Source: a virus. Taken from it: 20,145 nucleotides of DNA. The translations under genes and the position numbers were made by a program. Below, one piece after another: positions 3,817 to 20,145 of this stretch; within the stretch, counting starts at the first letter, position 1, and the number at the start of each line of letters is the position of its first letter. The DNA lies in the IMG/VR virus record IMGVR_UViG_3300046009_010860, positions 1 to 20,145 of that record; one strand, written 5' to 3'. Below the pieces are notes generated by a model. It saw only the letters and a program-made list of their open reading frames with translations. It ran no database searches and was not told where the DNA came from.

Positions 3817-4070
3817 ACATGCAGAAGGTTGTGGACATGTTGTTCCCTGTTCTGCTGGCCGCTGTTGGCTGGCTGCTGACGGAGATCGCATCGTTCAACA
3901 ATCGACTGCTGTCCATTGAGTCCAAGATGCCTGCGCTTATTACGTCTGAGGGCGTGCCGACAGACAGCCCGGTTAGCGCAGCCCGTAGGCAGGACATGAA
4001 GGATGACATCATGGAGGACATCCATGACCTTCAGGTGCGCGTCAAATTGATGGAGGAGCGTCAAAAGTGA
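3813..4070 (+). CDS. Single-TM protein with C-terminal coiled coil, lysis-region accessory
   Basis: An 85-residue protein starting inside the previous stop (ATGA). The hydrophobic segment at about residues 8-23 (DMLFPVLLAAVGWLLTEIA) is followed by a charged, helical stretch that ends in DDIMEDIHDLQVRVKLMEER, a likely coiled coil. The topology resembles the inner-membrane subunit of spanins, yet no lipoprotein partner (outer spanin) is recognisable in the window, so the spanin reading is weak. It could instead be a holin partner or antiholin. Its last codons carry GGAGGAG, which serves the next gene. Confidence 0.7.
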   Translation: MNMQKVVDMLFPVLLAAVGWLLTEIASFNNRLLSIESKMPALITSEGVPTDSPVSAARRQDMKDDIMEDIHDLQVRVKLMEERQK

Positions 4071-4609
4071 TCCCCGCAGCCTTGTTGCCGATTATCCAGC
4101 CGTTGCTCTCCAACGGCCTGAACCTTGTGGCCAATGCCGTCATGGCAAAGGGCAAGAAGGTGGTTGAGGAAAAGCTTGGCGTCGAGCTCAAGCCCGACAT
4201 GTCGCCGGAGGAGATCATTGCCCTCAAGACGGCGGAGATGGAGCACGAAGAAGAGCTGCTCAAGCTCAAGCTCGAAGAGAACAAACTTGGCCTTCAAGAG
4301 CTGGAGATGCGGCTCAAGGACACAGACTCGGCGCGAGACCGGGAGGTGCAGATCGCCACCTCAGATAAAGCCCCGTTGCTTAATAAGATCGTGACCCCCG
4401 TTCTCGCGCTGGGGTTGTTGACGCTGACCTTCATCCTCTTTGGCATTGTGATGTTCGACAACACCCCGGTGGAGTCGAGCCGCAAGGACATCCTGATCTA
4501 TATCCTGGGTGTCCTGTCTGCGATTAGCACGCAGATCGTGTCGTACTACTTCGGCTCTTCGCAGGGCTCGAAGGAAAAGACCGAGCAGTTGAAGGAGGCG
4601 CTGAAATGA
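4067..4609 (+). CDS. Holin-like membrane protein, similar to gene-transfer-agent 3TM holins
   Basis: A 180-residue protein with a GTG start at 4067, eight bases after GGAGGAG (4052-4058), overlapping the previous stop. The first third is amphipathic. A long charged helical region follows (about 50-100, rich in Glu/Lys). Two clear membrane segments, around 106-127 and 142-162, come next, then SYYFGSSQGSKEKTEQLKEA. The YFGSS-x-GS-x-x-K ending after the last membrane span is what I associate with the Holin_3TM/GTA-release family and related phage proteins. It would permeabilise the inner membrane so that the endolysin directly downstream, coupled by ATGA, reaches the cell wall. The family call is from memory; the membrane topology and the neighbour are seen directly. 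Confidence 0.78.
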   Translation: MIPAALLPIIQPLLSNGLNLVANAVMAKGKKVVEEKLGVELKPDMSPEEIIALKTAEMEHEEELLKLKLEENKLGLQELEMRLKDTDSARDREVQIATSDKAPLLNKIVTPVLALGLLTLTFILFGIVMFDNTPVESSRKDILIYILGVLSAISTQIVSYYFGSSQGSKEKTEQLKEALK

Positions 4610-4971
4610 GCAACGTCGCTGAACAGTCTGCCTTTCTGCTCGATGTCGGCCGTCTTGTGCAGAAGGCCACGGAGCTTGGCTTTTTAGTCACGGCCGGTGA
4701 GCTCTACCGCACGCCCGAGCAGCAGGAAATCTACGTCAAGACGGGGCGCAGCCGGACGATGAACAGTCTGCACATCCAGCGCCGGGCCGTGGACCTTAAT
4801 TTCTTCAAGGACGGCAAGCTCGTCTATGACAAGCACGTCCTTGCGCCGTTAGGCGCGTACTGGGAATCGTTAAACCCCCTCAACTCTTGGGGTGGCAACG
4901 GCGTGAAGCTTGTCGACACGCCGCACTTCTCGCGAGGCGTGGGCAAACCGGAGTGGAAGAGGGTCACATGA
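4606..4971 (+). CDS. Endolysin, M15-family zinc L-Ala-D-Glu/D-Ala-type peptidase
   Basis: A 121-residue single-domain peptidoglycan peptidase of the M15 fold. The zinc site is visible: His56 in SLHIQRRAVDLN, Asp63 in the same segment, and His107 in DTPHFS, with Asp104 as the likely catalytic acid three residues before the last His. The upstream GELYRTPEQQEIY segment matches the conserved region before the first zinc ligand. No cell-wall-binding domain and no signal peptide are present, so release would depend on a holin. AAGGAGG at 4592-4598 lies seven bases before the ATG, and the start overlaps the holin-like gene. The length is normal for a minimal M15 endolysin. The exact bond cleaved cannot be told. 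Confidence 0.9.
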   Translation: MSNVAEQSAFLLDVGRLVQKATELGFLVTAGELYRTPEQQEIYVKTGRSRTMNSLHIQRRAVDLNFFKDGKLVYDKHVLAPLGAYWESLNPLNSWGGNGVKLVDTPHFSRGVGKPEWKRVT

Positions 4972-6061: not shown

Positions 6062-7915
6062 ATGCCATACCTCAGACTCTTTCTCAAGCCGGGTGTAGAC
6101 AAGCAAAACACCGAATACGGCGCTGAAGGCGGGTGGATCGACTCGGATTACATCCGTTTTCGATACGGACTGCCCGAAAAGCTGGGCGGATGGACCGAAT
6201 TCAACGACACGGCGACCTATTTCGTCGGTATGCCGAGCGAAGTCTTCACCTGGACGGACCTCGAGGGCTCGCCATACGTCGTTATGGGCACGACGCGCAA
6301 GGTTTACGTCTTTTACGGCGGCTCCTGGGGCGATATCACACCGATTCGGGCTACCCAGGCCGGCGTTACCTTCGATACGACTAACGGGTTGACTAAGGTC
6401 ACGGTCAACGACACGGGCCACGGTTGCATTCCTGGCGACTTTGTCACCCTGTCAAACGTCACGGGCGATCCGGGCGGTATTCCGAACGCCAGTCTGACCG
6501 GCGAGTTCGAGGTTCAGGATGTTCCAAATGCCAATGAGTACACCATCATCTCGCCGGCAGCGGCGACCAGCACGGCAACGGCGGCAGGCACGGCCGACGC
6601 GGCCTACCAACTAAGTGTCGGCTCGGACGTCAGCTACAACGACTTCGGTTGGGGCACCGGCACGTGGGGCCTCTCGACCTGGGGCACCCCGCGGCCGCCT
6701 TCCGCGGCCCTCGCCCTGGGTTCGCGAGTCTGGCAGTTTGACAGCTTCGGCGAGAACCTGATCCTTCAGCTCGTCGACGGCGGCATTTACGAGTGGGATC
6801 CTGATTCAGGGATCACGTCCCGCGCGATGGCCATCTCCGGCGCGCCGACCAAGAGCAAGTACGCGCTGGTGTCGACGCCAGACCGGCACTTAGTCTGTTT
6901 TGGCACGGAGTCGGTCATTGGGGATCCTACTTCGCAGGATCCGATGTTCGTGCGCTTCTCCAACCAGGAGGATGTCAACACGTTTGTGGCAACGGCCACC
7001 AACACGGCCGGCGGACAACGGCTCACGGACGGCAACAAGATCGTCTCGGCGCTGCGTTCACGCGGCCAGATCCTGATTTGGACGGACACGTCGCTGCACG
7101 GCATGCAGTACCTCGGCCCGCCGTACACGTTCGGCTTCCAGCAGCTCGGTGCTAACTGCGGCTTGATCGGCCCACATGCCTCGGCGGACGTGAACGGTGT
7201 GGCGTATTGGATGGCCAAGGACGCGTTCTTCGTGTTCGACGGTACGGTCAAAAAGCTTGCCTGCACGGTGCAGGATTACGTGTTTAAGGATCTGAACACT
7301 ACTCAGACCGAAAAGGTACACGTCGGCATTAACACGCAGTTCAACGAAGTGACGTGGTGGTATTGCTCGGCCAACAGCGACTACATCGACCGCTTCGTCA
7401 CCTTCAACTACCTCGAGCAAGTGTGGTCCGTGGGCAGCATGGCACGCACTGCATGGGCGGACATTGGGGCGTTCTCCAATCCGCTTGCCACGTCGTACGA
7501 TCCTAACGGTACTGAAGCAACGATCACGACGATTAACGGATTGACTGCGGGTCGTTCGCGTATCTTCAACCAAGAGGATGGCAAGAACGGCGACGGATCG
7601 GCGATCACGGCCTACGTCAAGTCGGGATACTTCGACATTGGCGATGGCGACCAGATGATGTACATGCGTCGATTTGTTCCTGACTTCAAGAACCAGGAAG
7701 GCAACCTGACGATTCACCTCCTTCTGCGGCCGTACCCGCAATCCTCTGCCGTCCCGAGCTCTTTGGATCCTTACGTGATCAATCCTACAACGGATAAAGT
7801 CGACACTCGGGCGCGCGGGCGGCAGATCAGTTTGCGTATTGAGAGCACGGAGATAGATACGAACTGGCGTTTCGGCACGATGCGTGTTGACATCCAGCCG
7901 GATGGCTTGCGATGA
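6062..7915 (+). CDS. Large virion protein, P22 gp10-like/beta-propeller tail accessory candidate
   Basis: A 617-residue protein. The N-terminus contains GGWIDSDYIRFRYGLPEKLGGW, a signature I associate with a common phage structural protein. Several propeller-like strands follow, including RHLVCFGTESVI, QILIWTDTSLHGMQYLG and GVAYWMAKDAFFVFDGTVKKL. The C-terminus ends NWRFGTMRVDIQPDGLR. The order of repeated W/F beta strands and total size fit gp10-type tail accessory/DNA-stabilisation proteins, but the match is by pattern only. Residues about 113-183 look like an inserted beta module. No clear ribosome site precedes the ATG, nine bases after the previous stop. It overlaps the next start by ATGA. 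Confidence 0.72.
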   Translation: MPYLRLFLKPGVDKQNTEYGAEGGWIDSDYIRFRYGLPEKLGGWTEFNDTATYFVGMPSEVFTWTDLEGSPYVVMGTTRKVYVFYGGSWGDITPIRATQAGVTFDTTNGLTKVTVNDTGHGCIPGDFVTLSNVTGDPGGIPNASLTGEFEVQDVPNANEYTIISPAAATSTATAAGTADAAYQLSVGSDVSYNDFGWGTGTWGLSTWGTPRPPSAALALGSRVWQFDSFGENLILQLVDGGIYEWDPDSGITSRAMAISGAPTKSKYALVSTPDRHLVCFGTESVIGDPTSQDPMFVRFSNQEDVNTFVATATNTAGGQRLTDGNKIVSALRSRGQILIWTDTSLHGMQYLGPPYTFGFQQLGANCGLIGPHASADVNGVAYWMAKDAFFVFDGTVKKLACTVQDYVFKDLNTTQTEKVHVGINTQFNEVTWWYCSANSDYIDRFVTFNYLEQVWSVGSMARTAWADIGAFSNPLATSYDPNGTEATITTINGLTAGRSRIFNQEDGKNGDGSAITAYVKSGYFDIGDGDQMMYMRRFVPDFKNQEGNLTIHLLLRPYPQSSAVPSSLDPYVINPTTDKVDTRARGRQISLRIESTEIDTNWRFGTMRVDIQPDGLR

Positions 7916-9321
7916 GCAAGATCAACAACGTCCGTTTGCCGAACGCTGCGACGGATGGGTATAGCGCGCAGCAGTTTGATCAGCTCGTACGTTCGCTCGA
8001 ACAGGTCATTTTTCAGCTTAACAACACCTACACGCCTGTTGTCACTGAGGACAAGGACACCGCGTACGCGTGGTATGGGGATGGCGGAGGATGCATTGAT
8101 ATGAATGGAGTGCCTGTACCTATTTCCTTTCCCCCGACCGCATTAGATGCGTTTGGTCGGCAGCGAGTTAGTGAGCCTTACACTCTTTTTGACAGTCAAA
8201 ACCGTTACGCAGCGGACAATCAGTTTGATGTTGCCACGACCGGCACCGGCACCACATCGTTCCTGACGAACGAGGCGGCGGTGAAGATGGAGGTCACTGC
8301 TGGCGGCGTGGGCTCCGTGATCCGTCAGTCTTTCCGCTCGTTCCCGTATCAGCCCGGCAAGGGCCTGTTGGTGCTGGCCACATTTGTGATGGACGCCAGT
8401 ACCAGCGCGAATCTGACGCAGCAGGTGGGCTACTACAACGATCAAAACGGATTGTTCTTTAAACGCACAGGGTCAACTAACTCCTTTGTTCTGCGTAGTT
8501 ATGTGACGGGTTCTGTCTCCAATGTGCGGACCGTGAACCAGTCTTCTTGGAATGGCGACAAGTTGGATGGCACCGGCCCAAGTGGTCTGACGTTGGATCC
8601 CACCAAGGCACAAATCCTGTGGATGGACTTTGAGTGGCTGGGCGTTGGATCAGTGCGCTGCGGGTTCATCATCAACGGCGAGTACATCATTTGCCATACG
8701 TTCAACAACGCCAACGACATCGCTAATGTCTACATGACCACGGCCATCTTGCCGATGCGCTATGAGATCGTCACCACGACCGCTGCGGTGGCAGCTTCGA
8801 TGAAGGCAATCTGCTGTTCGGTGATGTCCGAGGGCGGGTTTGAACAGACATCCATTGACCATGTGGCGCGTCGCACCACGATCCTGGGCACCATCGGTAC
8901 GACCTTTTTGCCTTTGGTGTCTATCCGTTTGGCTTCTGGCCGAACGGGCGCAGTGGTACTGCCAAACCGTGTTCAGGTGTTGCCGACCACCAGCCAAAAC
9001 TACGAAGTGGTGTTGATTAAGAATCCAACCCTAACCGGGGCGACTTTTGCGGCCACGGTGCCTTCGGATTCCAACGTGGAGTTTGATGTCGCTGCAACGG
9101 CAACCACGGGCGGCACGATTGTTCAAAGCGATTACCTCTCCTCCAACACAGCGGGAGGCACGAGCAGCACTAGCTTTGCCAACGCCTATAACTTTGATCT
9201 TCAGCTTGGCGCGTCGATTGCCGGCGTCAGTGATATCTATACCGTAGCGATTCGGACAGTTTCCGGGGCCACGACTGGGGATGCGGTCGGTTCTCTGTCT
9301 TTCTTCGACCTGACGCAGTAG
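7912..9321 (+). CDS. Virion structural protein with 'FGRQRVSEPYTLFD' core
   Basis: A 469-residue protein coupled by ATGA to the preceding gene. Residues 1-60 are a short adaptor-like N-terminus (NAATDGYSAQQFDQLVRSLE). From about residue 76 it carries DAFGRQRVSEPYTLFDSQNR, then FRSFPYQPGKGLLVLATFVM, VGYYNDQNGLFFKRTG, WNGDKLDG and DFEWLGVGSVRCGFIINGEY. I recognise this series from a structural protein shared by cyanophages and many other marine and giant phages. It is beta-rich and repeated in many copies in some virions. The C-terminal 130 residues are a Thr/Ser/Ala-rich beta region. It is probably a tail or capsid-surface protein; the precise place is unknown. Confidence 0.8.
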   Translation: MSKINNVRLPNAATDGYSAQQFDQLVRSLEQVIFQLNNTYTPVVTEDKDTAYAWYGDGGGCIDMNGVPVPISFPPTALDAFGRQRVSEPYTLFDSQNRYAADNQFDVATTGTGTTSFLTNEAAVKMEVTAGGVGSVIRQSFRSFPYQPGKGLLVLATFVMDASTSANLTQQVGYYNDQNGLFFKRTGSTNSFVLRSYVTGSVSNVRTVNQSSWNGDKLDGTGPSGLTLDPTKAQILWMDFEWLGVGSVRCGFIINGEYIICHTFNNANDIANVYMTTAILPMRYEIVTTTAAVAASMKAICCSVMSEGGFEQTSIDHVARRTTILGTIGTTFLPLVSIRLASGRTGAVVLPNRVQVLPTTSQNYEVVLIKNPTLTGATFAATVPSDSNVEFDVAATATTGGTIVQSDYLSSNTAGGTSSTSFANAYNFDLQLGASIAGVSDIYTVAIRTVSGATTGDAVGSLSFFDLTQ

Positions 9322-9329
9322 AGGCGACC

Positions 9330-9656
9330 ATGGCAAACAAGTATCTTCGCAAGTATCTCATTCCAAGCGCCGCTACAGAGACCCTCCTGTACACCGTCCC
9401 CTCGGCCAACTCGACGGTCGTGCGTTCCTTGCGCGTCACGAACACTGGAACAGGCACCACGGCCATCACGGTGGCGCATACGGGCACCGGTACGACCTAT
9501 TACCTACAGAAAAACCGTTCCTTGGACGTAAACGGGACGTTTGACGTCTTCAACGGCATTCCCTGCGTGTTGGAAGCAGGGGACGTCCTACGGGTGACCT
9601 CGAGCCTGGCGGGGTCTCATTTCTATCTTTCCTACTTAGAGATGGACAGAACGTAG
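9330..9656 (+). CDS. Small beta-sandwich virion protein
   Basis: A 108-residue protein eight bases after the previous stop, with GAGG at 9321-9324. Almost all of it reads as beta strands: TLLYTVPSANSTVVRSLRVT, TGTGTTAITVAHTGTGTTYY (a TGTGTT duplication), then a GDVLRVTSSLAGSHFYLSYL ending. The pattern fits single-domain beta-sandwich proteins used as phage decoration or tail-tip parts. It ends the upstream transcription block, since the only large gap in the window follows. Confidence 0.7.
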   Translation: MANKYLRKYLIPSAATETLLYTVPSANSTVVRSLRVTNTGTGTTAITVAHTGTGTTYYLQKNRSLDVNGTFDVFNGIPCVLEAGDVLRVTSSLAGSHFYLSYLEMDRT

Positions 9657-9763: not shown

Positions 9764-12175
9764 ATGGAAAATGAAGGCATCATGGGCTTGCCCGCAGGGC
9801 AGGCTATGCAAAACCAAGGGTCAGAAAACCAGCCGCTCTATATCTCGAGTGCTGATTCGTATGACGCTGCGCTATCCGCTCTCGGCATGTCGGCCGATGA
9901 TCCTGCACAGGTGGAAGCCGTCCGTCAGGCGGTTCGCGAGAGCATTGATGAGCTAGATCTCAGCCCGACTGAGATGGACGCGCTACTCGAAGTCCTCGAG
10001 TACATGTCCCAGAACCCGGATCAGTATCCGCAGATCCGTCAGCGCCTAATCGATTCGGGCATGATGGATGCCGACGATCTGCCGGAAGCCTACGACCCGG
10101 CGTTCCTTGGTATGGCCATCATGGCCTTGAACGAAGCCATGTCCTCGCAGGCCCAAGGGGCCGCTGCGCCGATGGAAATGGCCCCGCAGATGCAGGGCAT
10201 GCAGGGTACGCCGGCTGCTATGGGCTTCGCCGAGGGGGGTCTCGCGGACGTTGCCAAGTACCTGGCGGCCCAGGGCCGTAACGGCGACTCGATCCTTGCT
10301 CACATCACGCCTGCTGAAGCGCGTCTGCTCAAGTCCATGGGCGGTTCGGGCACGATTAACCCGGAGACGGGGCTGCCTGAGTTCTTTTTGAAGAAACTCT
10401 TCAAGAAGGTCAAAAGCGCCGTCAAGAAGATCCTCAAGAACCCGATCGTGCGCGTTATTGCCACGGTCGCGTTGGCCACGGTCCTTGGTCCGGCGGCCGC
10501 TGCGGTCGCGGGTAAGGCAGGCGTTATTATGTCCTCCGCTGCCACGGCTGCGGTGGGATCCGCCGCTGCGGGAGCCGCGGTCTCGGCGATGTCTGGCGAG
10601 AAGATTTCGCTGCGCAACGTACTGGTCAACGCCGCGACGGGCTATTTCGGCGCAGGCGGCACGATCGGTAGGGTAAACCCCACAGCCGCGATTGCCGGAA
10701 AGGTGGGGCAGCTCACCGGCGCAGGCGCTCAGAGCGCGATCGCACAAGGCGTTGGCGCGGGCGTCACGGGCACGGGCATTGGCCTTCTTTCGGGTCTCAA
10801 GCCGCGCGAAGCCCTTCAGATGGGCGCGCAAGCAGGCCTCATGGCCGGCGCGACGCAAGCTGCGCAAAATTATCGGGCCGCCACACGTCCGACTTCGCCA
10901 AGCATGCAGGGCGATACTTCTGCGTTCAGCCCGGAAGGCGGAGCAGGGGCCGGACAGCCGCAAGGGGGCGCGCAGCCCGCGGGAGCGGCGGGGGCCAGCG
11001 CGACTGATGGTCCAACCTCTCTTATCATCAGGAACACTGGACAAGAAGTTTTCCCGGGCGGGCAGGGCCCGGCCTCGCCGGCCATGGGCGGCGACATGTC
11101 AGCCTTTGTGCCCGGTGGCGCAGGCGGTACGGGGGGCATCGCGCCCCCGACGGGCGCAACTTCGGCAGTGGAATATTACTCTCCCGCGTACGGTGTCAAA
11201 CCATCAACGGGGCTGTCTAGTATTTCACCGATGCCTACGACGGCTGCTCCGGCCGGGGCTGCCGCTGCGGATACGTTCTTCGGACGCGTTGGGCAGTTCT
11301 TCGAGAAGCCCTCTACAAGCACTTTTACAGATGCCTTCCTCGTCAATCCGAAGGCAACAACGACTCTTGGCAAGTACGCCCCAGGCGTAGCCACGGCGTT
11401 GACGGTGACGGGCGCGTTGGGCGGCTTCAAGCAGGGCGAAGTCAACGAAAACCCGCTCTTCAATCGCGACTACACTGGCGAAAGCTACATCCGCGACAAC
11501 CCGGAACTCTTCAAGAACCGCGTCGAGGCGACGAAGCTCGAGCCCTACAATCCTGTTGTGCCGACTCCGTCCTACGCGCAGCAGCCTCAAGCAGGCGCGC
11601 AGCCTGGACCAAGCACCACGGGCCAGCCGCCGCAGTACACGGCGCCGACGATCCCTGTTACGCCGGCTCCCACGTACGTGCCGCCGCCGTTCTCGGTCAC
11701 CAATCAGCCGCAAGGCATCCCGCAGCCCTATAACGTGTCAGGGCTCTACGGCGTACCGTTGCTTTACGGCAACAATCAGCCGCAGTCGGCCCGTCCGCCG
11801 GGCTATGCGCAAGGCGGAGCGGCCGTGAAGCGGGGCTTTAAGAACCCGCAGCATGTGGCGCAGACCGAAGCGATGCTGTACGCAGGCCCACAGGCCGCGC
11901 AACAGACCGCTGTAGCAATGGATTACTTAGCGAACAAGGGAATCATGGGCGCACAGGGACTTCGCAAGGGCGGGCAGCCGACGAAGTTCCCACGTAAGAC
12001 CGGTCCGATCAACGGTCCGGGCACGGGAACGTCGGATTCGATTCCGGCGATGCTTTCTGACGGTGAATTCGTGTTTACGGCAAAGGCCGTGCGCAATGCG
12101 GGTAATGGAAGTCGTCGAAAAGGCGCACGTCGCATGTACAAACTTATGAAAATGCTAGAAGGCGGTAAGGTCTAG
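9764..12175 (+). CDS. Large internal-virion/ejection protein candidate (803 aa)
   Basis: The frame is open from GTG 9692, but ATG 9764 after AAGGA (9754-9758) is preferred because the extra 24 codons lie in the structured leader. Residues 1-145 are acidic, with helical SPTEMDALLEVLEYMSQNP. FAEGG (about 155-159) leads to HITPAEARLLKSMGG. Residues 209-226 (LKKLFKKVKSAVKKILKN) are a cationic amphipathic helix followed by an Ala/Gly/Val-rich hydrophobic tract to about 285. A long Pro/Gly/Ala linker spans about 370-680. The C-terminus has YAQGGAAVKRGF and GPGTGTSDSIPAMLSDGEFV (751-770), an ending I have seen in other phage internal virion proteins. A membrane-interacting ejected protein is inferred; no enzymatic motif is seen. 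Confidence 0.75.
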   Translation: MENEGIMGLPAGQAMQNQGSENQPLYISSADSYDAALSALGMSADDPAQVEAVRQAVRESIDELDLSPTEMDALLEVLEYMSQNPDQYPQIRQRLIDSGMMDADDLPEAYDPAFLGMAIMALNEAMSSQAQGAAAPMEMAPQMQGMQGTPAAMGFAEGGLADVAKYLAAQGRNGDSILAHITPAEARLLKSMGGSGTINPETGLPEFFLKKLFKKVKSAVKKILKNPIVRVIATVALATVLGPAAAAVAGKAGVIMSSAATAAVGSAAAGAAVSAMSGEKISLRNVLVNAATGYFGAGGTIGRVNPTAAIAGKVGQLTGAGAQSAIAQGVGAGVTGTGIGLLSGLKPREALQMGAQAGLMAGATQAAQNYRAATRPTSPSMQGDTSAFSPEGGAGAGQPQGGAQPAGAAGASATDGPTSLIIRNTGQEVFPGGQGPASPAMGGDMSAFVPGGAGGTGGIAPPTGATSAVEYYSPAYGVKPSTGLSSISPMPTTAAPAGAAAADTFFGRVGQFFEKPSTSTFTDAFLVNPKATTTLGKYAPGVATALTVTGALGGFKQGEVNENPLFNRDYTGESYIRDNPELFKNRVEATKLEPYNPVVPTPSYAQQPQAGAQPGPSTTGQPPQYTAPTIPVTPAPTYVPPPFSVTNQPQGIPQPYNVSGLYGVPLLYGNNQPQSARPPGYAQGGAAVKRGFKNPQHVAQTEAMLYAGPQAAQQTAVAMDYLANKGIMGAQGLRKGGQPTKFPRKTGPINGPGTGTSDSIPAMLSDGEFVFTAKAVRNAGNGSRRKGARRMYKLMKMLEGGKV

Positions 12176-12192
12176 CAACAGCGAGCAGCAAC

Positions 12193-14421
12193 ATGGCTAC
12201 AGATACGTCAGTCCAACAACAGATTGTCCGGGAAGCCCCGGAGATCGAGGCTTATAAACTTGACCTGTTGAAGCAGGCACGAGATCTGGCCACGCAGCCG
12301 GGTTTCGCGCAGCAGATTCCGGGATATCAGGTTGCGGGCTTCTCTCCGGCGCAGCTTGCGGCAATGCAGGCCGCCGAACAGCAGGGCGTGGGCGCGTTCA
12401 CGCCGTACGTCACGGCGGCTAACCAGGCACTTGCTCGTGGCATGACGACGACGGGTGAAGCAGCCGACGTGTTGCGCGGCGCCGACACACGTGGCCAGTT
12501 CACCGATGCTCAGACGGCTATGCGTCAGGCGGGTGCTGCCGCTGCGGGCATGAGCGGTGGCATCAACCAGATCAATACGGGCCTTGGCTACATGGATCTC
12601 GCCGGCCAGCGTGCGCTGGCGGCGGATACGACCGGTCGCTTCGGCGCGGCGTATCAGGACATCGGCACCGGCATCAATGCGCTTGCCACTTCGCAGAACA
12701 TGGCGGCGCGTGCTTCGCAGGCGGACCTGACCCCTGCCACGGCCGCGATCGGCCAGGGCATGCGGGGTATCTCTGATGCGCAGCGCATGGCCGCTGGTGC
12801 AGCAGGCGCAGACTTCTCCGGCTCGCAGCAGCTCCTGCAACAGGCCGCGCAGCGTGGTGCGGCAGCCGTGCCGCAGATGGGCGGTGCGCAGCAGGCTATT
12901 CAGCAGGGCCTCGGAACGGGGCAAGAAGCCATCCAAATGGCGCGCGCGGCGGCTGCGGCTCCGGGCATGGCGCAGGGCGTCGGCGCTCTGTATGGCGGTG
13001 CGCAGCAAGCGGCTGCCGCTGCTCAACAGCCGGGATTCCAGACCGCACAGCAGGCCATTCAGCAGGGCATCGGTGCCATCGGTGGCGGTACGCAGGGCTA
13101 TGACCCGTCGCGTGCGCAGTCGTTCATGGATCCGTATCGTCAACAAGTCATCGACGAGACGATGCGGCAGATCAATCGCCAGGGCGAGATCGCGCAACAG
13201 GGTCTTTCGGCGCAGGCCGTACGAGCCGGCGCGTTCGGTGGCGAGCGCGAGGGCGTGCAGCGTGCCGAGATGCAGCGCGGCTTGATGGAGCAGAAGGCGA
13301 GCACGATCTCAAATCTTCTCTCGCAGGGCTACTCGCAGGCGCAGGCCCAATCGATGGCTGCGTTTGAGCAGCAACAGCAGCGTGCGCTGCAAGGTGCGCA
13401 GGCCACGGGCCAGCTCGGTGGTCAGGCGGCACAGGTCGCCGCACAGCAAGCGGGACTCGGTCAGGCTGCTGCGGGCATGCTTCAGCAGGCGGGACAAGGG
13501 CAAATTTCTGCCGCAGCGCAGCAGGCAGGGCTCGGTCAAACCGCGGCACAGCTTGCCGCGCAACAGGCGGGACTCGGCGTACAGGCCGGTAGCCAGTTAG
13601 GATCGCTCGAATCGCAGCGCGCGGCGGCTGAACAAGCCGCTGCGGGTCAGATCGCTAACATCGGTCAGACGATCGGCCAACAGGCGCAGCAGCAAGCACA
13701 GCTTGGGCAGTCGGCGGCCGGTCTTTACGGCAACCTCTCGCAGCAGCAGATCGCGGCCGGTCAAGGCCTTGGTCAGTTGGGCGTGGAGCAAGCACGTCTT
13801 GGCCAGTCCGCGGCCGGTCTCTATCAGCAGGCGGCACAGGGCTACGGCAACCTCGCTTCGCAGCAGGGCGCACTCGCCGGACAAGAGTCAAACATTCAGC
13901 AGAACATCTCCAACTTGCTCATGCAGCAGGGCGCGGGACGTACGTCTGCTGCGCAGGCGCTTGCCGGCATCTACGGCCAGCAGTCGGGGCAGCTCCAGAA
14001 CATCGCTCAGGGCATCGGATCGCTCGCCGGCCAGCAGTTTGGCATTGGCCAGCAGATGTCCCAGGGCCTTGGTCAGTTGGGCGGCCAGATGGGGCAGCAA
14101 GGCTTGCAGCAGCTTGGCGTGGGCCAGGCGGCGCAGGGCATGCAGCAGTCCGACATCAACTTCCTCTACAACGTCGGCCAGTCTCAACAGGCCTTCAACC
14201 AGCAGCAGCTCGATGCGCAGCGTGCGACGCAGATGCAGAAGCTTTACGCTCCGTATCAGCAGCTTGGGTTCCTTTCGGATATTTACCGCGGTGCGCCGTC
14301 CACGCAAATGGCGACGACTGCGGTCAGTCAACCTTCGGCAAGCCCGTTCCAGCAGGCAGCGGGCGTTGGACTTGCGGGCCTGACGGCCGCGGCAGGCGCA
14401 AAAACTGCCGGGCTTATTTAA
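12193..14421 (+). CDS. Gln/Ala/Gly-rich repetitive internal virion protein candidate (742 aa)
   Basis: A 742-residue protein very rich in Gln, Ala and Gly, and apparently without cysteine. Residues about 305-375 hold SFMDPYRQQVIDETMRQINR and QAVRAGAFGGEREGVQRAEM, a block I recognise from similar phage proteins next to ejection genes. Before and after it are degenerate helical repeats: AQQAGLG at residues 417, 442 and 456, LGQSAAGLY at 504 and 536, and AIQQG twice. The end includes QMQKLYAPYQQLGFLSDIYR. Long helical repeats suggest an elongated or coiled assembly, like T7-type inner core proteins. The ribosome site before ATG 12193 is poor (GAGCAGCAAC). The gap to the previous gene is 17 bases. 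Confidence 0.75.
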   Translation: MATDTSVQQQIVREAPEIEAYKLDLLKQARDLATQPGFAQQIPGYQVAGFSPAQLAAMQAAEQQGVGAFTPYVTAANQALARGMTTTGEAADVLRGADTRGQFTDAQTAMRQAGAAAAGMSGGINQINTGLGYMDLAGQRALAADTTGRFGAAYQDIGTGINALATSQNMAARASQADLTPATAAIGQGMRGISDAQRMAAGAAGADFSGSQQLLQQAAQRGAAAVPQMGGAQQAIQQGLGTGQEAIQMARAAAAAPGMAQGVGALYGGAQQAAAAAQQPGFQTAQQAIQQGIGAIGGGTQGYDPSRAQSFMDPYRQQVIDETMRQINRQGEIAQQGLSAQAVRAGAFGGEREGVQRAEMQRGLMEQKASTISNLLSQGYSQAQAQSMAAFEQQQQRALQGAQATGQLGGQAAQVAAQQAGLGQAAAGMLQQAGQGQISAAAQQAGLGQTAAQLAAQQAGLGVQAGSQLGSLESQRAAAEQAAAGQIANIGQTIGQQAQQQAQLGQSAAGLYGNLSQQQIAAGQGLGQLGVEQARLGQSAAGLYQQAAQGYGNLASQQGALAGQESNIQQNISNLLMQQGAGRTSAAQALAGIYGQQSGQLQNIAQGIGSLAGQQFGIGQQMSQGLGQLGGQMGQQGLQQLGVGQAAQGMQQSDINFLYNVGQSQQAFNQQQLDAQRATQMQKLYAPYQQLGFLSDIYRGAPSTQMATTAVSQPSASPFQQAAGVGLAGLTAAAGAKTAGLI
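13441..13830 (+). repeat. In-frame degenerate repeats coding AQQAGLG and LGQSAAGLY
   Basis: AQQAGLG is encoded at 13441, 13516 and 13558. LGQSAAGLY is encoded at 13702 and 13798, 96 bases apart. A further exact 19-base match, ggccttggtcagttgggcg, lies at 13765 and 14065. The codons differ between copies, so the protein pattern rather than the DNA seems to be kept. Copy number may vary between relatives. Confidence 0.7.
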
Positions 14422-14430
14422 GGGGTCGGT

Positions 14431-16515
14431 ATGAAAGACAAGATGATGAACGACATCGAAAACGTCGGAATCATGCAAGGATTCCTCGACGAGGCTGCGG
14501 AAAAAGAGGACGAGCTCGAGGAGGAGGAAGGCTCCGAAGAGGCGTCCGCTGCACGCGTGCTTAACCGCCGCCCGGACTCGCCCGAAATCCTCATGAACAA
14601 CCTTCGCGGCGACATGCGCTCGGTCGATGCACGTCGCGAAGAGCTTGCCGATCTTGTTGGCTACGATGCGGCGGTCGAAACGCCCGAATCAGTGCTGGCA
14701 ATGCTTCAGCCTGTACTCGCCCAGCAGGGTGGAATCGGCGCGTTGCCACAATCAGGGCCCATGGCCCAAGGACCACAGCCTCCGATGCCGCCGCCCCCGG
14801 GTGGAGAAATGGGTGCTCCGCCCGCAGGGGCTCCTCCGCTTCCTCCTGGAGGGCCTCAACCACCTCCTGGTGGTGACATGGCCGCGCTTTTAGCTTCAGC
14901 CGGCCCTCCGCCTGGGGGCGGCATGGCACCGGGCGGTCCGCCGCCGGGCGCCGGCCCGATGATCGGGCCTGATGGACAGCCTATCCCGCCGGAAGGCATG
15001 CCGCCGATTCAGATGTATCGCGGAGGCGAGGTCAAACATTTTTTTAATGGGTCGCCCGATCCCGACGAAGAGGACGAGGAGACCCAAAAAAATGACCTTA
15101 TGAACTCGCCTTACTCTGCCGAGCAGGTTGCCAACGCAAGAAGGCGGCTCATGAGTTTGGTCGAGCAGCAGGCGTTGCCTGAGCCCGATCTTGAGAAGCT
15201 CGCGCTTCAACGAGAGAAGCTTTACACAAAACTTTTGGGCGATGACCGAGAGTCTCAGAAGGCACAGCTTCTGTTCTCGATCGCTCAGAAAGGACTTCAG
15301 TTTGCGGGTAACGTCGATGCGCAGGGTCGTCCGTTGCGGGGCTCTCCCGTGAGCCGATTTGCGGCCGTGGCTGCTGACCTGCCCGCGGAAATCAACCGAT
15401 TCATCTCTGATGCCGACAAGCGTCGCAATGCGATCCGTCTTGCTGCGCTTGAGGGGGCGGAGAAGGAAGCAGGAAACATCCGCGAGCAGAACGTCAAGCT
15501 TATTGAAGCGCAGCGTCGTGCGGACAGCGCCCTCGTACGTCGAGGAACGGGGGAGAGCTATCCGGCCAGCAAGTGGTTTATGCGCACGGTCTACACGCCG
15601 GGCCTTCTCAATGCGTGGTCTGACGGCGTGTTGTCGAGTGACGATGACACTAGGGTTGAGCAGGCCGTAAACAGCCTTATTGCTGACTCAAAAGAGCGCA
15701 TTACCTACGAACCCTACAAAGACAGCATGAACATTGATCGGGTGCGGACGGTAAAGATTCCGGGCTATGAACTGCCTCGTGCCGTTCAAGAAGCCATTGC
15801 TAAGCGAAAGACGTTGCTGAATAGCGGTTGGCAGCCGATGGACATCAGCCCGACGTCTGGCGCGTTGATTGGCGATGATGCTGCATCACTTCCGACAGAT
15901 GAAGCTACGTTGGAAGCTGGGTCTGCTCCGGTAGAGGCTCCGGCGGCTCCGGCGGGTGCTTCGGCCACAGGCACGGCGCCTGTTTCGGCTCCCCCGCTCA
16001 AGACGCTTTGGGAACGCGCACCTAACCTGACAGACATTGATGTCGTAGAGGGCGTGGTTGCACAAAACGTACCCGGTTTTGGCACCATGAACTCAGCGGC
16101 GCAGGTCGATCAGCGCTTCTTTACGCAACAAGTCAATAACCTGGTTGCTGCTTTGCAGCAAAGCCCGCGCTATGCCGAAGGCGAACGAGAAGATATTAAG
16201 AAAGAGCTCAAGCTCAATCTTTCCCCGCTTCGCGATACGGACGCGATCCGTAATAACTTCGTAGGCGTCTACCAGGTGCTACGGCAAGAGTTGGATGATG
16301 CTCGTAGGGATGAAGCGGATACCTCACTATCGGGGGATTTCAGGAAGCAGCGGCAGATGAATGCCCGTATGATTGACGACTTCTTGAAGGTTTTGATGCC
16401 GCCTCCGATCTACAGCATTGATGACTATAAGAAGCTCCCCGTCGGTTCCAGTTTCTTGCGGCGAGAAGATGGAAAATGGAAAATGGGTGTAAAAGAATCT
16501 CCCTCTGGTGAGTGA
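14431..16515 (+). CDS. Large virion-associated protein with Pro/Gly linker and acidic N-terminus (694 aa)
   Basis: ATG 14431 follows AAGGGG (14420-14425) by five bases. Residues about 20-42 are strongly acidic (EKEDELEEEEGSEEAS). Residues 45-95 include NRRPDSPEILMNNLRGDMRS and TPESVLAMLQPVL. A Pro/Gly/Met-rich linker spans about 103-193. MYRGGEVKHFFNG (from 195) is followed by a second acidic patch, then a helical region (220-500) with SLVEQQALPEPDLEKLALQR. Another Pro/Ala linker comes near 498-525, and a C-terminal domain ends with FLKVLMPPPIYSIDDYKKLP. It is one of four large proteins in a row; an internal virion or ejection role is inferred from company and composition. No catalytic motif is seen. 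Confidence 0.7.
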   Translation: MKDKMMNDIENVGIMQGFLDEAAEKEDELEEEEGSEEASAARVLNRRPDSPEILMNNLRGDMRSVDARREELADLVGYDAAVETPESVLAMLQPVLAQQGGIGALPQSGPMAQGPQPPMPPPPGGEMGAPPAGAPPLPPGGPQPPPGGDMAALLASAGPPPGGGMAPGGPPPGAGPMIGPDGQPIPPEGMPPIQMYRGGEVKHFFNGSPDPDEEDEETQKNDLMNSPYSAEQVANARRRLMSLVEQQALPEPDLEKLALQREKLYTKLLGDDRESQKAQLLFSIAQKGLQFAGNVDAQGRPLRGSPVSRFAAVAADLPAEINRFISDADKRRNAIRLAALEGAEKEAGNIREQNVKLIEAQRRADSALVRRGTGESYPASKWFMRTVYTPGLLNAWSDGVLSSDDDTRVEQAVNSLIADSKERITYEPYKDSMNIDRVRTVKIPGYELPRAVQEAIAKRKTLLNSGWQPMDISPTSGALIGDDAASLPTDEATLEAGSAPVEAPAAPAGASATGTAPVSAPPLKTLWERAPNLTDIDVVEGVVAQNVPGFGTMNSAAQVDQRFFTQQVNNLVAALQQSPRYAEGEREDIKKELKLNLSPLRDTDAIRNNFVGVYQVLRQELDDARRDEADTSLSGDFRKQRQMNARMIDDFLKVLMPPPIYSIDDYKKLPVGSSFLRREDGKWKMGVKESPSGE

Positions 16516-16530
16516 CTTAGGAATTAACTG

Positions 16531-19500
16531 ATGGAAAACGAAGACGATAAGATAATGTCTGAAGAAGACGCCCTTAATCAGTATCTTGCCGAACAAGCAC
16601 TCGTCAGCCGTACTCCATCAAACGAGGCTGAGTCTGAAGAGGACGCTCTTAATCGATACCTTGCTGAACAAAAGACGTCAAGAGACGTTACAGAGTCTTC
16701 TGTCCGTGACATTCCTGCCGCAGAGCAGGCAAAGCTGGTCGCTTCTGGTGCTGTCGCCCAAGGAACGCCTCTGGCTGCGGGGCTTCAGGGGTTCAGAATG
16801 GGGTTTGCGGGCGGCGCTCCCCTGGCCGCGGCGGCAGCGCCTGTATTAGGCCCCGCTGCTTCTGCAATTCCGTTTGTCACGGGCGCAGGCGCGGCAGTTG
16901 CCGGCTATTACGGCACCAAGGCGCTTGCCAATTCGTTGATCGACGAGCCAGAGCCCACTGACATCGCAGCGCATGCGCTGTATGAGTCGGGCGGAACGCT
17001 TGGCGAGGCGATCGCTTTTGCGCCGTTGGCGTTTTATATCCCCGCCACGCTTGCTCCCACCTTTGGCCGTCTTGGCCAGTATGCGGTTCGCGTAGGGGAA
17101 GGCGCACGCAAGTACAAGAAGTCCTATCTGTTTGGTGAAACCAGTAGCGGTGGCATGTCCTCGCTCGGCACTTATCGTGCAGAGACGCAGTATCCAGGTG
17201 AAGCCGGTAAGCGCTTCATGTACGAAGTCGGATTTGGCCTTTTGGATCCGACAAAACTCGTCCCGTTGGTTACCTCCAAGGGGGTTGACGTCCTAAAGAC
17301 AGCGATCTCTTTGCGTAACCGAGAAGGGCGAGAAGCCTTCAAACAGTCGCGATCCATCGCGAGCCAGGACAAGGCCGCTACGCGTCTGATCGAGATCTTT
17401 GAACAGTACGGCGAGGATGTCCCTGCGCTGATCAAGGCCCTGGAAGAGCCACTTCCTGGCGCGCCGACGGTGTCCTATCCGCCAGCGGGTGGTTTGGCGG
17501 CGGTAACGGGCCCCACGGCTGCGCAAAAGACCGGATCGCTGACCGTTACGCAGCTCGAGGCGGCGCTCTCGTCGCTGAATCCGAAGTTCGCAGCGGACGT
17601 CAACGAGCAGGGACGGCAGTCACTGTTGGCGTACTCGCTTGTCCTGAACAAACTGACCGATATCGGTAGTCCTGATGCGTTGAAGGCCGCGGCGCTGATG
17701 CGTCAAAGCTTCTTTAATAGTGCGCTTGACGCGCGTCTTAACACGGCCGTTCGACGCGGCTGGGAGACCGTGCAGCGCACATTCAAGGGCGTGGAAGACA
17801 GCCCTGCTGTCCGCGCCGAAGTCGGACAGATCATCCGTAACGAAGTGGAACTCGCGCTGAAGAATGCGAGAACCGCGGAAAAGATTCTTTGGACCAACGC
17901 TCAGAAGGAAGCACTGACGCCGAAGGGCAAGGTGCAGCGCGGCGCTCGAGCCTTCGAGGTTCCCAACACGCTGCTGCCTGGAAACATGATTCAGGCGTAC
18001 CTGAAGCGCGTTTCCGAGATCGCCCCGGAGTTTAGAAACGAACTCGTTCCTGCTCCGATTCAGAACTTCATGAAGAGCCTTGGTGTCACCCCCGAGGTCA
18101 TTGATCGTTATAGAAAGGGCATGGAGAAGGGCGCGTTCGTAATCAAGAGCCGAGTAGACAAGCGCTACCAGCCTGATGCCGAGGTGCTCAACGATCGACC
18201 GGTCCTCGATCTCATCGAACTGCGTTCGACCTTTCTTGATCTCGTCAGGAATTCGGCCGCCAAGGGCGATCCGTCCCATGCCAGTTTCTATACGGACATG
18301 CAGCGGGCGCTGCTCAAGGATCTATCGACGCTTCCTGGGCAGGCGTACGACGTTGCGCGTAGCTTCTCGCGCGATCTGAACGACAAGTTCACTCGCACCT
18401 TTGCCAACGACCTGTTAGAGAAGACAGGCACTGGCGCGGATGCCATCCCCCCGGAAATGCTGGTCACCAACGCGTTTGGTTCCGGCACCGATCGCGTCGC
18501 ATTGAGAATGCGGCAGATTGAAGGTGCGGTTGGCTTCATGAAGGACCGTCTCAGCCAGGAAGTGCTGGACGGTGTGACCGATCCTGAAGTGCAGAAGAAG
18601 TTAAAGGACTTTGCGACGGTTTCTACCGATGGCGTCGTTTCAGTACAGGATGCTCAGTCGCGAGTCCTGCGACTCTTGGCCTCGAAGGCGCTGTATCAGG
18701 ATCCGAAGGAACTGGGCCGTGTGCGGGTCAATCGCACTCAATTGGACAAGTTCATCAAGGAAAACAAGCCGCTCCTCGATGAGATGGGGCTGACTCAAGA
18801 CTTGATGGACGCGAGCACAGCGGAAAACCTGCTTGCTTCGGCGATCAAGACGAACAGTGCGCTGAACACGAAAATCCGCAACCAGATGGCCTTCTCCAAG
18901 GTTCTGGATTCAAGCCCCACGATCGCGGTAGGCAACGCGCTTTCGCAGACCACAAAGGATCCTGCGCGCGCCATCCGTCAGCTCGTCCTGCTTGCTAAAA
19001 AGGGCGGCCCCGAGGCGATCGAGGGGCTCAAGAGCTCGATCTACGACTACATTGCCACCAAGGCATCTGATTCCACGGCAAAGATTGACCCGCAGAAGTA
19101 CTACGATGCGTTCTTCAAAGGCCGATACAAGGATCAGGTTCCGCTCGTCAATATCCTGAAGGGCATGGGCGTCATGTCCCCCGAAGAGGTCAACAACCTC
19201 CGGGCGGCGACGAACCAGATGTTCAAGATCGAAGACGTCCTCACGAATCGTCGCATGCTCGAGGACGTGATCCAGGGCGCCGACATCATGGGCGAACTCG
19301 TGATGCGCGTTGTGGGTTCCAAGATCGGTACGGCGGCAACGTCGGGCGGCCCTGGCTCACTCATCGCGGCTTCAGCCGGTTCCAAGGCCATCCGTCAGAT
19401 CTTTGATCAGATGCCGACGCTGGCTGCCCGCAACCTCATGGAAGAGGGGCTGCGTAACCCGCAGCTCATGGCGCAGCTCCTGCGTCGCGGCAAGTCGCAG

Positions 19501-19905
19501 CGCGAGAAGTTGATTTACGCCCGACGCCTACATTCGTACCTGATGGCCGCCGGCTACAACTATCTTCCCTCGACGTTCCCAACGGACGCGCAGTTGCAGG
19601 CTGAAGAGGAGGCCGAGCGCAAGGCAACACGGGAGGCTTACAAAAACCTCCGCGACATGCCGCCGCCCAACCCCGCGTTCTCTACTCCGAACTCCAGCCA
19701 GGAGCGTTTGCGCCGGGCGTTCCCGCCAGCTCCGCCTGCTCGAGGCATGCCGGGGATGGGAGGCGGTGGTGGTGGTCAACCGCCGGGAGGCGGCGGAGCT
19801 CCGCCGACGTCACAGAGTCGGATGATGCTCCAGCAGCTCTTCCCGAACGATGCGATTACAGGGGCGGCTGCGGCTCAGGGCGCGGCTCCGCCGATGCCTG
19901 GCTAA
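16531..19905 (+). CDS. Largest internal virion/ejection protein candidate (1124 aa)
   Basis: ATG 16531 lies seven bases after AGGAA (16519-16523). The N-terminus repeats a 13-residue motif, SEEDALNQYLAEQ at 10-22 and SEEDALNRYLAEQ at 35-47. Residues about 75-135 are Ala/Gly-rich and hydrophobic, enough for membrane insertion. The long middle is helical and charged, with no lysozyme, protease or polymerase motif that I can see. The region 930-1030 (RVVGSKIGTAATSGG, then MEEGLRNPQLMAQLL) looks conserved in style. The C-terminus is a Gly/Pro linker between two SQ-x-R...FP motifs (1056-1065 and 1094-1105). Its size and place last in the cluster resemble the largest ejection protein of podoviruses (compare T7 gp16), but there is no sequence proof. 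Confidence 0.72.
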   Translation: MENEDDKIMSEEDALNQYLAEQALVSRTPSNEAESEEDALNRYLAEQKTSRDVTESSVRDIPAAEQAKLVASGAVAQGTPLAAGLQGFRMGFAGGAPLAAAAAPVLGPAASAIPFVTGAGAAVAGYYGTKALANSLIDEPEPTDIAAHALYESGGTLGEAIAFAPLAFYIPATLAPTFGRLGQYAVRVGEGARKYKKSYLFGETSSGGMSSLGTYRAETQYPGEAGKRFMYEVGFGLLDPTKLVPLVTSKGVDVLKTAISLRNREGREAFKQSRSIASQDKAATRLIEIFEQYGEDVPALIKALEEPLPGAPTVSYPPAGGLAAVTGPTAAQKTGSLTVTQLEAALSSLNPKFAADVNEQGRQSLLAYSLVLNKLTDIGSPDALKAAALMRQSFFNSALDARLNTAVRRGWETVQRTFKGVEDSPAVRAEVGQIIRNEVELALKNARTAEKILWTNAQKEALTPKGKVQRGARAFEVPNTLLPGNMIQAYLKRVSEIAPEFRNELVPAPIQNFMKSLGVTPEVIDRYRKGMEKGAFVIKSRVDKRYQPDAEVLNDRPVLDLIELRSTFLDLVRNSAAKGDPSHASFYTDMQRALLKDLSTLPGQAYDVARSFSRDLNDKFTRTFANDLLEKTGTGADAIPPEMLVTNAFGSGTDRVALRMRQIEGAVGFMKDRLSQEVLDGVTDPEVQKKLKDFATVSTDGVVSVQDAQSRVLRLLASKALYQDPKELGRVRVNRTQLDKFIKENKPLLDEMGLTQDLMDASTAENLLASAIKTNSALNTKIRNQMAFSKVLDSSPTIAVGNALSQTTKDPARAIRQLVLLAKKGGPEAIEGLKSSIYDYIATKASDSTAKIDPQKYYDAFFKGRYKDQVPLVNILKGMGVMSPEEVNNLRAATNQMFKIEDVLTNRRMLEDVIQGADIMGELVMRVVGSKIGTAATSGGPGSLIAASAGSKAIRQIFDQMPTLAARNLMEEGLRNPQLMAQLLRRGKSQREKLIYARRLHSYLMAAGYNYLPSTFPTDAQLQAEEEAERKATREAYKNLRDMPPPNPAFSTPNSSQERLRRAFPPAPPARGMPGMGGGGGGQPPGGGGAPPTSQSRMMLQQLFPNDAITGAAAAQGAAPPMPG

Positions 19906-20145
19906 GGAACCGCTCGACGCGTTCCATCCACTCGGCCTTGTAGCGATCGAACTCGGCGCCCGTCGTGCTGAATTCCTGCGTGCCGCCTGATTGCAGCGCA
20001 ATCAACACGTAGCCGTGTTTGATTGTGGTGCCATGCACCACATCGTGCGCCATCGCGTACGCCGCAAGCTGATGGAAGTAGTCTTGAATCCACTCGTGCT
20101 TCTTCGGCTTTAACGACTGCTTGAAGTCGACGATCGCAGGGTTTC
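19856..20145 (-). CDS. PD-(D/E)XK nuclease, C-terminal part (partial; RecB/Cas4/MGME1-like exonuclease)
   Basis: The - strand frame is open from the window end to a stop at 19856-19858, giving the last 95 complete codons. The visible part begins NPAIVDFKQSLKPKKHEW, holding the D-x-K metal/catalytic motif (Asp-Phe-Lys), and continues QDYFHQLAAYAMAHD, the Q-x-x-x-Y motif of RecB-like nucleases. A beta region (GYVLIAL), a final helix (RYKAEWMERVERFL) and a Pro-rich tail follow. Phage members act as 5'-3' exonucleases in recombination or DNA degradation. The earlier acidic motif lies outside the window. Its last 50 bases overlap the end of the 1124-aa gene tail to tail. A Met codon exists at 20053, but starting there would cut off the active site. 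Confidence 0.87.
   Translation of the reverse strand, partial: NPAIVDFKQSLKPKKHEWIQDYFHQLAAYAMAHDVVHGTTIKHGYVLIALQSGGTQEFSTTGAEFDRYKAEWMERVERFLSQASAEPRPEPQPPL

Follow-up and report, generated by a model that had tools for sequence, protein, structure and literature searches.

A probable four-protein ejection cassette with a length-variable hairpin protein in an uncultured podovirus

This work indicated that four adjacent large genes of a virus, called p1 to p4 here, encode a set of ejection proteins, i.e., internal virion proteins. They fill positions 9764-19905 of the 20,145-base record IMGVR_UViG_3300046009_010860, the whole of which is referred to below as the window. This assignment, which the original prediction had made as a likely ejectosome, is well supported by the position of the genes after a nozzle gene, by the family to which p2 belongs, by the absence of cysteine and by a conserved gene order. 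The most unusual feature of the locus, missed in that prediction, is that p2 contains two arms which change length together. Taken as a whole, the locus is probably the ejection set of a podovirus of the LUZ24/P22 type, in which the p2 hairpin would form a conduit wall and p1 and p4 the membrane ends, without a wall enzyme. The four genes are:

9764-12175, plus strand: p1, 803 residues, extra member of the predicted ejection set
12193-14421, plus strand: p2, 742 residues, PHROG 4287 DNA ejection protein family, predicted length-variable antiparallel hairpin
14431-16515, plus strand: p3, 694 residues, candidate ejection protein (alignments, model)
16531-19905, plus strand: p4, 1124 residues, predicted all-helical large ejection protein in the gp16 position (alignments, model, hhalign)

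Gene order, nozzle gene and absence of cysteine

The four open frames are separated by intergenic gaps of 9 to 17 bases and are preceded by AAAGGA (p1), a weak sequence (p2), AAGGGG (p3) and TAGGA (p4), the p1 start at 9764 being backed by relatives that have the MENEGIM start in common. In the conservation set, composed of viral contigs searched by tblastn and with hidden Markov models (HMMs), full-length open homologues amounted to 103 (p1), 113 (p2), 94 (p3) and 68 (p4) distinct complete proteins. The order p1-p2-p3-p4 was present in 119 locus entries, corresponding to 72 distinct sets (all gaps below 150 nucleotides in 68 of them), and no rearranged order was seen among these 72 sets. Relatives of p3 and p4 are only 25-50% and 29-50% identical to the window proteins, respectively, yet open, indicating that both frames are under selection. 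The four adjacent giant proteins initially described were thus confirmed as intact and conserved. By contrast, the compositional and hydrophobic features ascribed to them held only in part. The shared bias toward Ala, Gly, Gln and Pro was found as described in p1 (44%) and p2 (58%) but less so in p3 (35%) and p4 (32%), when compared with neighbouring proteins (23-29% in four of them and 18.5% in a 108-residue protein). As for hydrophobic tracts, a clear transmembrane-like one was seen in p1 and a weaker one in p4, but no clear one in p2 or p3.

The phage type is indicated by a gene located 2 kb upstream of the cassette:

6062-7915, plus strand: tubeB/nozzle protein, 617 residues, P22 gp10/LUZ24 type (phrog_3287, E 8.6e-93), marking a podovirus tail

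This protein aligned over its full length with phiM5_25, the tubeB of Sinorhizobium phage phiM5 (hhalign probability 100), and also matched Pa223_059 (probability 98). Among solved structures, it matched the nozzles 8zkk_O and 8zkm_E (E about 2e-10) and PDB 9nwi_Y (E 3e-25), a 513-residue chain equal in length to the Pa223 nozzle and of unconfirmed source. According to Hardies and colleagues, ejectosomal podoviruses are best recognised by a tubeB gene and then candidate ejection genes, and marine metagenomes are rich in a LUZ24-like lineage (PMC10386132). In the window, a gene of this kind (tubeB/nozzle) precedes large candidate ejection genes; judged from its sequence, the window fits the description of an ejectosomal podovirus of the LUZ24/P22 type.

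Comparison with known phages clarified the number of members. In the LUZ24-like Pseudomonas phage Pa223, the nozzle (059) is followed by a phrog_4287 protein (056) and then by cysteine-free proteins of 505 (054) and 1055 residues (053), in the order of p2-p4. Pa223 differs in that 056 has 313 residues, under half of p2, in that 054 and 053 have no detectable similarity to p3 and p4, and in that p1 is missing. By this order, p2-p3-p4 correspond to the usual three proteins, so that the claim of four proteins instead of three stands for p1, an extra member shared with pelagiphages, but not for p2-p4. All four genes were found, in the same order and with 35-48% identity over matched parts, in the metagenome-assembled DSL-LC04 (OR003939, proposed Dishuiviridae, PMC10611076). 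They are annotated there, from p1 to p4, as tail tape measure protein, hypothetical, hypothetical and DNA transfer protein, and p2 has only 294 residues.

Cysteine content was also in line with an ejection function. There is none in the 3,363 residues of p1-p4, for which about 18 would be expected from the neighbours, and none in 108 of their relatives, versus 8.7 per 1000 in the families of the nozzle and of a 469-residue neighbour; in a larger set of stop-to-stop frames, 8 of 378 proteins had a cysteine beyond the first 20 residues. Established ejection proteins share this signature. Among 21 such proteins of P22, Sf6, T7, phiKMV, SP6, N4 and phiM5, 19 were cysteine-free (0.13 per 1000), compared with 14 among 48 virion proteins of other kinds (6.0 per 1000; Fisher P = 2.9e-6), and N4 gp50 has no cysteine in 3,500 residues. 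A paper search with terms related to this signature returned no match, a result that does not establish its novelty.

Co-varying arms and family of p2

The variable part of p2 is organised as follows:

12400-13110 (approximate), plus strand: arm 1, 236 residues, Ala/Gly/Gln-rich, with ~23-residue repeats marked by QPG (HMM block anchors, periodicity)
13111-13350 (approximate), plus strand: conserved core, predicted hairpin tip, RAGAFGGEREGVQRAE (alignment, HMM block)
13351-14150 (approximate), plus strand: arm 2, 265 residues, Gln/Ala/Gly/Leu-rich, almost without Pro or charge, with 25-residue repeats

An N block, the core around RAGAFGGEREGVQRAE and a C block are of constant length, and the stretches between them vary. 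Arm lengths were measured with block HMMs in 67, then 92 distinct p2 sequences. They ranged from 15 to 402 residues for arm 1 and from 22 to 437 for arm 2 and varied together (Pearson r 0.985 with 67 sequences and 0.984 with 92), as in the pairs (213,240), (236,265), (265,297), (288,322) and (357,397), with some outliers, e.g., (135,253) and (324,437). Phylogenetically independent contrasts, calculated on a tree of the p2 constant blocks, gave r = 0.994 and a slope of 1.10 (shuffled null 0.00 +/- 0.07), 52 contrasts going in the same direction and 1 not. In related pairs that a single main gap in each arm suffices to explain, the insertions and deletions (indels) sat symmetrically on either side of the core (r = 0.90, differing on average by 4% of arm length), such pairs not being independent of each other. 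By contrast, control linker pairs of p1 and p3 did not covary (-0.15 and 0.28), and the largest value among three p4 segments was 0.59.

An antiparallel hairpin requires arms that co-vary in length and have mirrored indels, as in arms of the SMC/Rad50 type. Like these proteins, p2 presents terminal blocks, an arm, a central tip and a second arm of matching length, but it has no homology to them, its arms are rich in Gln, Ala and Gly, and it lacks an ATPase head. Co-varying arms and mirrored indels therefore point to two helical arms paired antiparallel in a hairpin of adjustable length, whose existence is well supported by the sequences. No description of a two-arm rod with arms changing length together was found for ejection proteins.

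The arms showed helical periodicity. Arm 2 showed hydrophobic autocorrelation at 7, 18, 25, 32, 50 and 57 residues and contained 4 prolines in 10,207 residues; at a period of 25/7, hydrophobic, Gln/Asn and Ala/Gly residues fall on three separate faces. In arm 1, repeat spacings of 7, 23 and 30 residues were seen, with QPG/QPA motifs spaced by 23. The module ratio of 25/23 (1.087) is in line with the measured slopes of 1.07-1.10. No long DNA tandem repeats were found, so that the modules are visible only at the protein level. On the assumption of straight alpha helices, one module would measure ~3.7 nm and the arms ~40 nm in the window protein. The hairpin perhaps sets the length of a DNA conduit. 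We tentatively consider, as a possible but rather doubtful extension, that p2 acts as a modular molecular ruler, in which paired insertions of ~23 and ~25 residues would add steps of ~3.7 nm and module number (from about 1 to about 17 depending on the phage, and about 10 in the window) would match conduit length to the host envelope. Judged by eye, p2 length had no obvious relation to the lengths of p1, p3 and p4.

Homology of the cassette to a recognised ejection family was established through p2. Indeed, 8 of 17 p2 family members matched phrog_4287, named DNA ejection protein (best E 1.8e-11), the window p2 alone reaching E 0.007. Members of this family include phiM5_27 (full-length, E 6.5e-91), Octadecabacter DB virus 2 gp18, the pelagiphage proteins HTVC023P gp81 and HTVC027P gp83, and Pa223_056. 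The p2 core is homologous to the phiM5 and DB virus 2 proteins (hhalign probabilities 96 and 98) within the loci formed by phiM5 genes 27-31 and DB virus 2 gp18-20, neither of which has p1. The annotation of phiM5_27 records its detection in phage particles, and virion-detected internal proteins come next in phiM5.

Other members, the enzyme question and neighbouring genes

In p1, the transmembrane-like tract (residues 223-249), the only clear one of the cassette, is present in 28 of 28 long relatives. It is followed by a long linker and by a C-terminal IPAMLSDGEFV motif common to tape measure proteins (20-member alignment). Homologues occur in the pelagiphages HTVC027P (gp82), psg01 (psg01_127) and HTVC103P (gp79); the position is the same in HTVC027P, HTVC023P (weaker) and psg01, and in HTVC103P the homologue is flanked by portal and capsid genes. 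In this context, p1 could be the tape measure of a long-tailed phage and the locus a tail module rather than an ejectosome, as suggested by PHROG tape-measure matches (E 5e-8 to 4e-6), by a match to PDB 8rk3_A and by the annotation of the DSL-LC04 homologue. We regard this as very improbable and rejected it as an identity for p1. The PHROG matches are confined to residues 716-784, span about 40-65 C-terminal residues and extend into no full-length similarity, and the match to 8rk3_A covers 34 positions only. The window encodes a podoviral nozzle, podoviral pelagiphages carry a protein with the p1-type motif, and the annotated structural genes of DSL-LC04 include a portal, adaptors (one Pam1-like) and a stabilization protein, while a tail tube, a sheath and a baseplate are all missing from them. 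The motif IPAMLSDGEFV...AVRNAG (11960-12160, C-terminus of p1) was found in tape measure proteins of unrelated phages; it accounts for the tape-measure annotations of p1-type proteins, a label which in DSL-LC04 goes back to 40 residues of motif and is probably an artefact. A related-looking LAHITPxEA motif stands in the N-terminal third of p1, and DUF4214 domains are inserted in the linker of some relatives (three contigs; Pfam best E 6e-11, 2 of 20 members).

The proteins p3 and p4 were placed by order, size and composition, in line with the practice for gp15-like proteins, mostly matched by size and synteny (PMC8954989). Alignments of p3 showed a conserved N-terminal part of 100 residues, disordered proline-rich linkers and helical regions at 250-420 and 600-655; its AlphaFold model had a mean predicted local distance difference test score (pLDDT) of 59, with values near 80 confined to 250-420 and 600-690. 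In p4, a Gly-rich hydrophobic helix lies at 63-136, and the model (mean pLDDT 57) was better in 481-600 and 740-900. Both models are thus of low confidence, mostly helical with disordered linkers. Searched against the PDB, they had no match at E below 0.001; among viral models, the best match of p4 was the uncharacterised A0A6J5TB49 (probability 0.96). By hhalign, p4 matched a 1003-residue protein of MW202711 (probability 100), a scan with which found nothing. The HMM-HMM comparison proposed in the original prediction was run and detected no homology of p3 and p4 to the ejection proteins of P22, T7, SP6, phiKMV and N4 (probabilities below 3%). PHROG 2534, the P22 gp20 family, was not used as an identity for p4 (E 0.058 in 1 of 10 members). 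A conserved C-terminal SRxMLQQLFPxD motif, located after a Gly/Pro-rich linker (19650-19900) in 42 of 68 p4 relatives, might serve for docking.

No enzyme was recognised in the cassette, as initially stated. Pfam searches of p1, p3 and p4 family members and of the window p2 revealed no lysozyme, transglycosylase, amidase or protease domain in p1-p4, in 34 p4 relatives or in 36 p3 relatives, and catalytic-motif expressions run on p1-p4 returned only generic, loose patterns. The transglycosylase or lysozyme domain of a T7-like set, carried by gp16 or gp15, was thus not found. When SLT, Hydrolase_2, M15 and phage lysozyme profiles were scanned over whole relatives, phage lysozymes found in four of them were separate small open reading frames (ORFs; 164-258 residues) outside p1-p4. 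The earlier proposal of a new mode of wall crossing was not supported. P22 and Sf6 also have several large cysteine-poor proteins after the nozzle, lacking the peptidoglycan-hydrolase domain of T7 gp16 (PMC8954989), although the P22 proteins gp7, gp20 and gp16 are of 229-609 residues and without sequence similarity found to p1-p4. Moreover, DB virus 2 gp19, encoded directly after the p2 homologue gp18, contains a Hydrolase_2 domain, which suggests that the wall enzyme is a swappable module. It is quite unlikely that p3 or p4 hides a wall-cutting enzyme too diverged to be seen. Fold matches of the p4 model did include LT_GEWL (lytic transglycosylase) proteins (probabilities 0.75 and 0.12), the positional relative gp19 has its Hydrolase_2 domain, and phiM5_28 is annotated as an exolysin. 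Those fold matches are nonetheless weak because of the low confidence of the p4 model; Pfam detected no lytic domain in the 34 p4 and 36 p3 relatives, and P22-type sets manage without an enzyme.

Other features of the window are the following:

169-2520: tail fibre with S74 chaperone (Pfam domain search), followed by small ORFs
4067-4971: holin-like and M15 endolysin region, lysis cassette
4606-4971, plus strand: M15-type endolysin, 121 residues, beside the holin-like gene (PF13539, E 9.6e-5; phrog_465 endolysin, E 1.7e-13)
7912-9321, plus strand: virion structural protein, 469 residues, between nozzle and ejection genes (phrog_1645, E 5.8e-105)
9330-9656, plus strand: 108-residue protein, phrog_1276 N-terminal part (E 1.9e-7)

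The M15 endolysin is the sole peptidoglycan hydrolase found in the window. Several relatives (four contigs) have a phage lysozyme ORF instead, which suggests that related phages swap their lysis enzyme. The 469-residue protein has over 590 relatives in viral contigs; phrog_1645 also occurs in HMO-2011 and in genomes of ~170 kb of Synechococcus and other cyanophages, and the protein is therefore not specific to short tails. A small convergent ORF (19856-20053, minus strand) overlaps the end of p4; DSL-LC04 has a PD-(D/E)XK nuclease and a helicase as convergent neighbours.

Proposed working of the cassette and its significance

Several observations weigh against the proposed explanation. The absence of cysteine supports ejection but does not prove it because scaffolds and tail needles are often cysteine-free too, and tape measure proteins were outside the tested set. 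For p3 and p4, no resemblance in sequence or fold to any solved or classical ejection protein could be detected. Arms that are fully helical would measure ~40 nm here and up to ~65 nm in relatives, which is beyond the usual periplasm. Lastly, phiM5_27 and DB virus 2 gp18 carry the annotation tailspike, and each terminates in a Peptidase_S74 chaperone, a domain typical of trimeric fibres. In line with this, p2 might instead sit on the outside of the tail as a needle, fibre or spike, only p1, p3 and p4 being ejected. In P22, the needle gene 26 also stands between nozzle and ejection genes, the P22 and Sf6 needles likewise lack cysteine, and long rods of varying length are typical of fibres. We nevertheless consider this unlikely. 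The P22 needle (gp26) was not among the top profile matches of p2, p2 of the window and its relatives has no S74 domain, the window has a separate S74 tail fibre, and PHROG 4287 is named DNA ejection protein, a label not traced to any experiment.

From a mechanistic point of view, the ejection explanation would imply that p1-p4 are packed in the head, precede the DNA on the way out through portal and nozzle, and build a channel that spans the bacterial envelope. In this channel, p2 would adopt its antiparallel helical hairpin, its base made of the N and C blocks and its tip of the conserved core, and would grow by paired modules of ~23 and ~25 residues, its oligomer most likely being an amide-rich conduit wall. 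The H-tube of phiX174, a helical DNA tube lined by amide (Gln) side chains (PMC7354561), offers a precedent for such a conduit, but it belongs to a tailless single-stranded DNA phage and no homology to p2 is claimed. The membrane ends would most likely be provided by p1, through its one conserved transmembrane-like tract, and by p4, through its Gly-rich hydrophobic N-terminal part. As in P22, a wall-cutting enzyme would not be carried.

Little is understood of how short-tailed phages span envelopes that differ in thickness, since ejection proteins diverge too far to be recognised by sequence. The absence of cysteine offers a strong and simple marker of podoviral ejection proteins. The locus described here appears to be a LUZ24/P22-like ejection cassette with one extra protein and no enzyme, the role of the p2 hairpin as conduit wall or ruler being putative. 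The p2 family belongs to a widespread uncultured aquatic lineage in which rod length has varied more than 10-fold while the ends and the tip were kept, and this natural variation makes the question of whether ejection-protein length sets conduit length directly testable.

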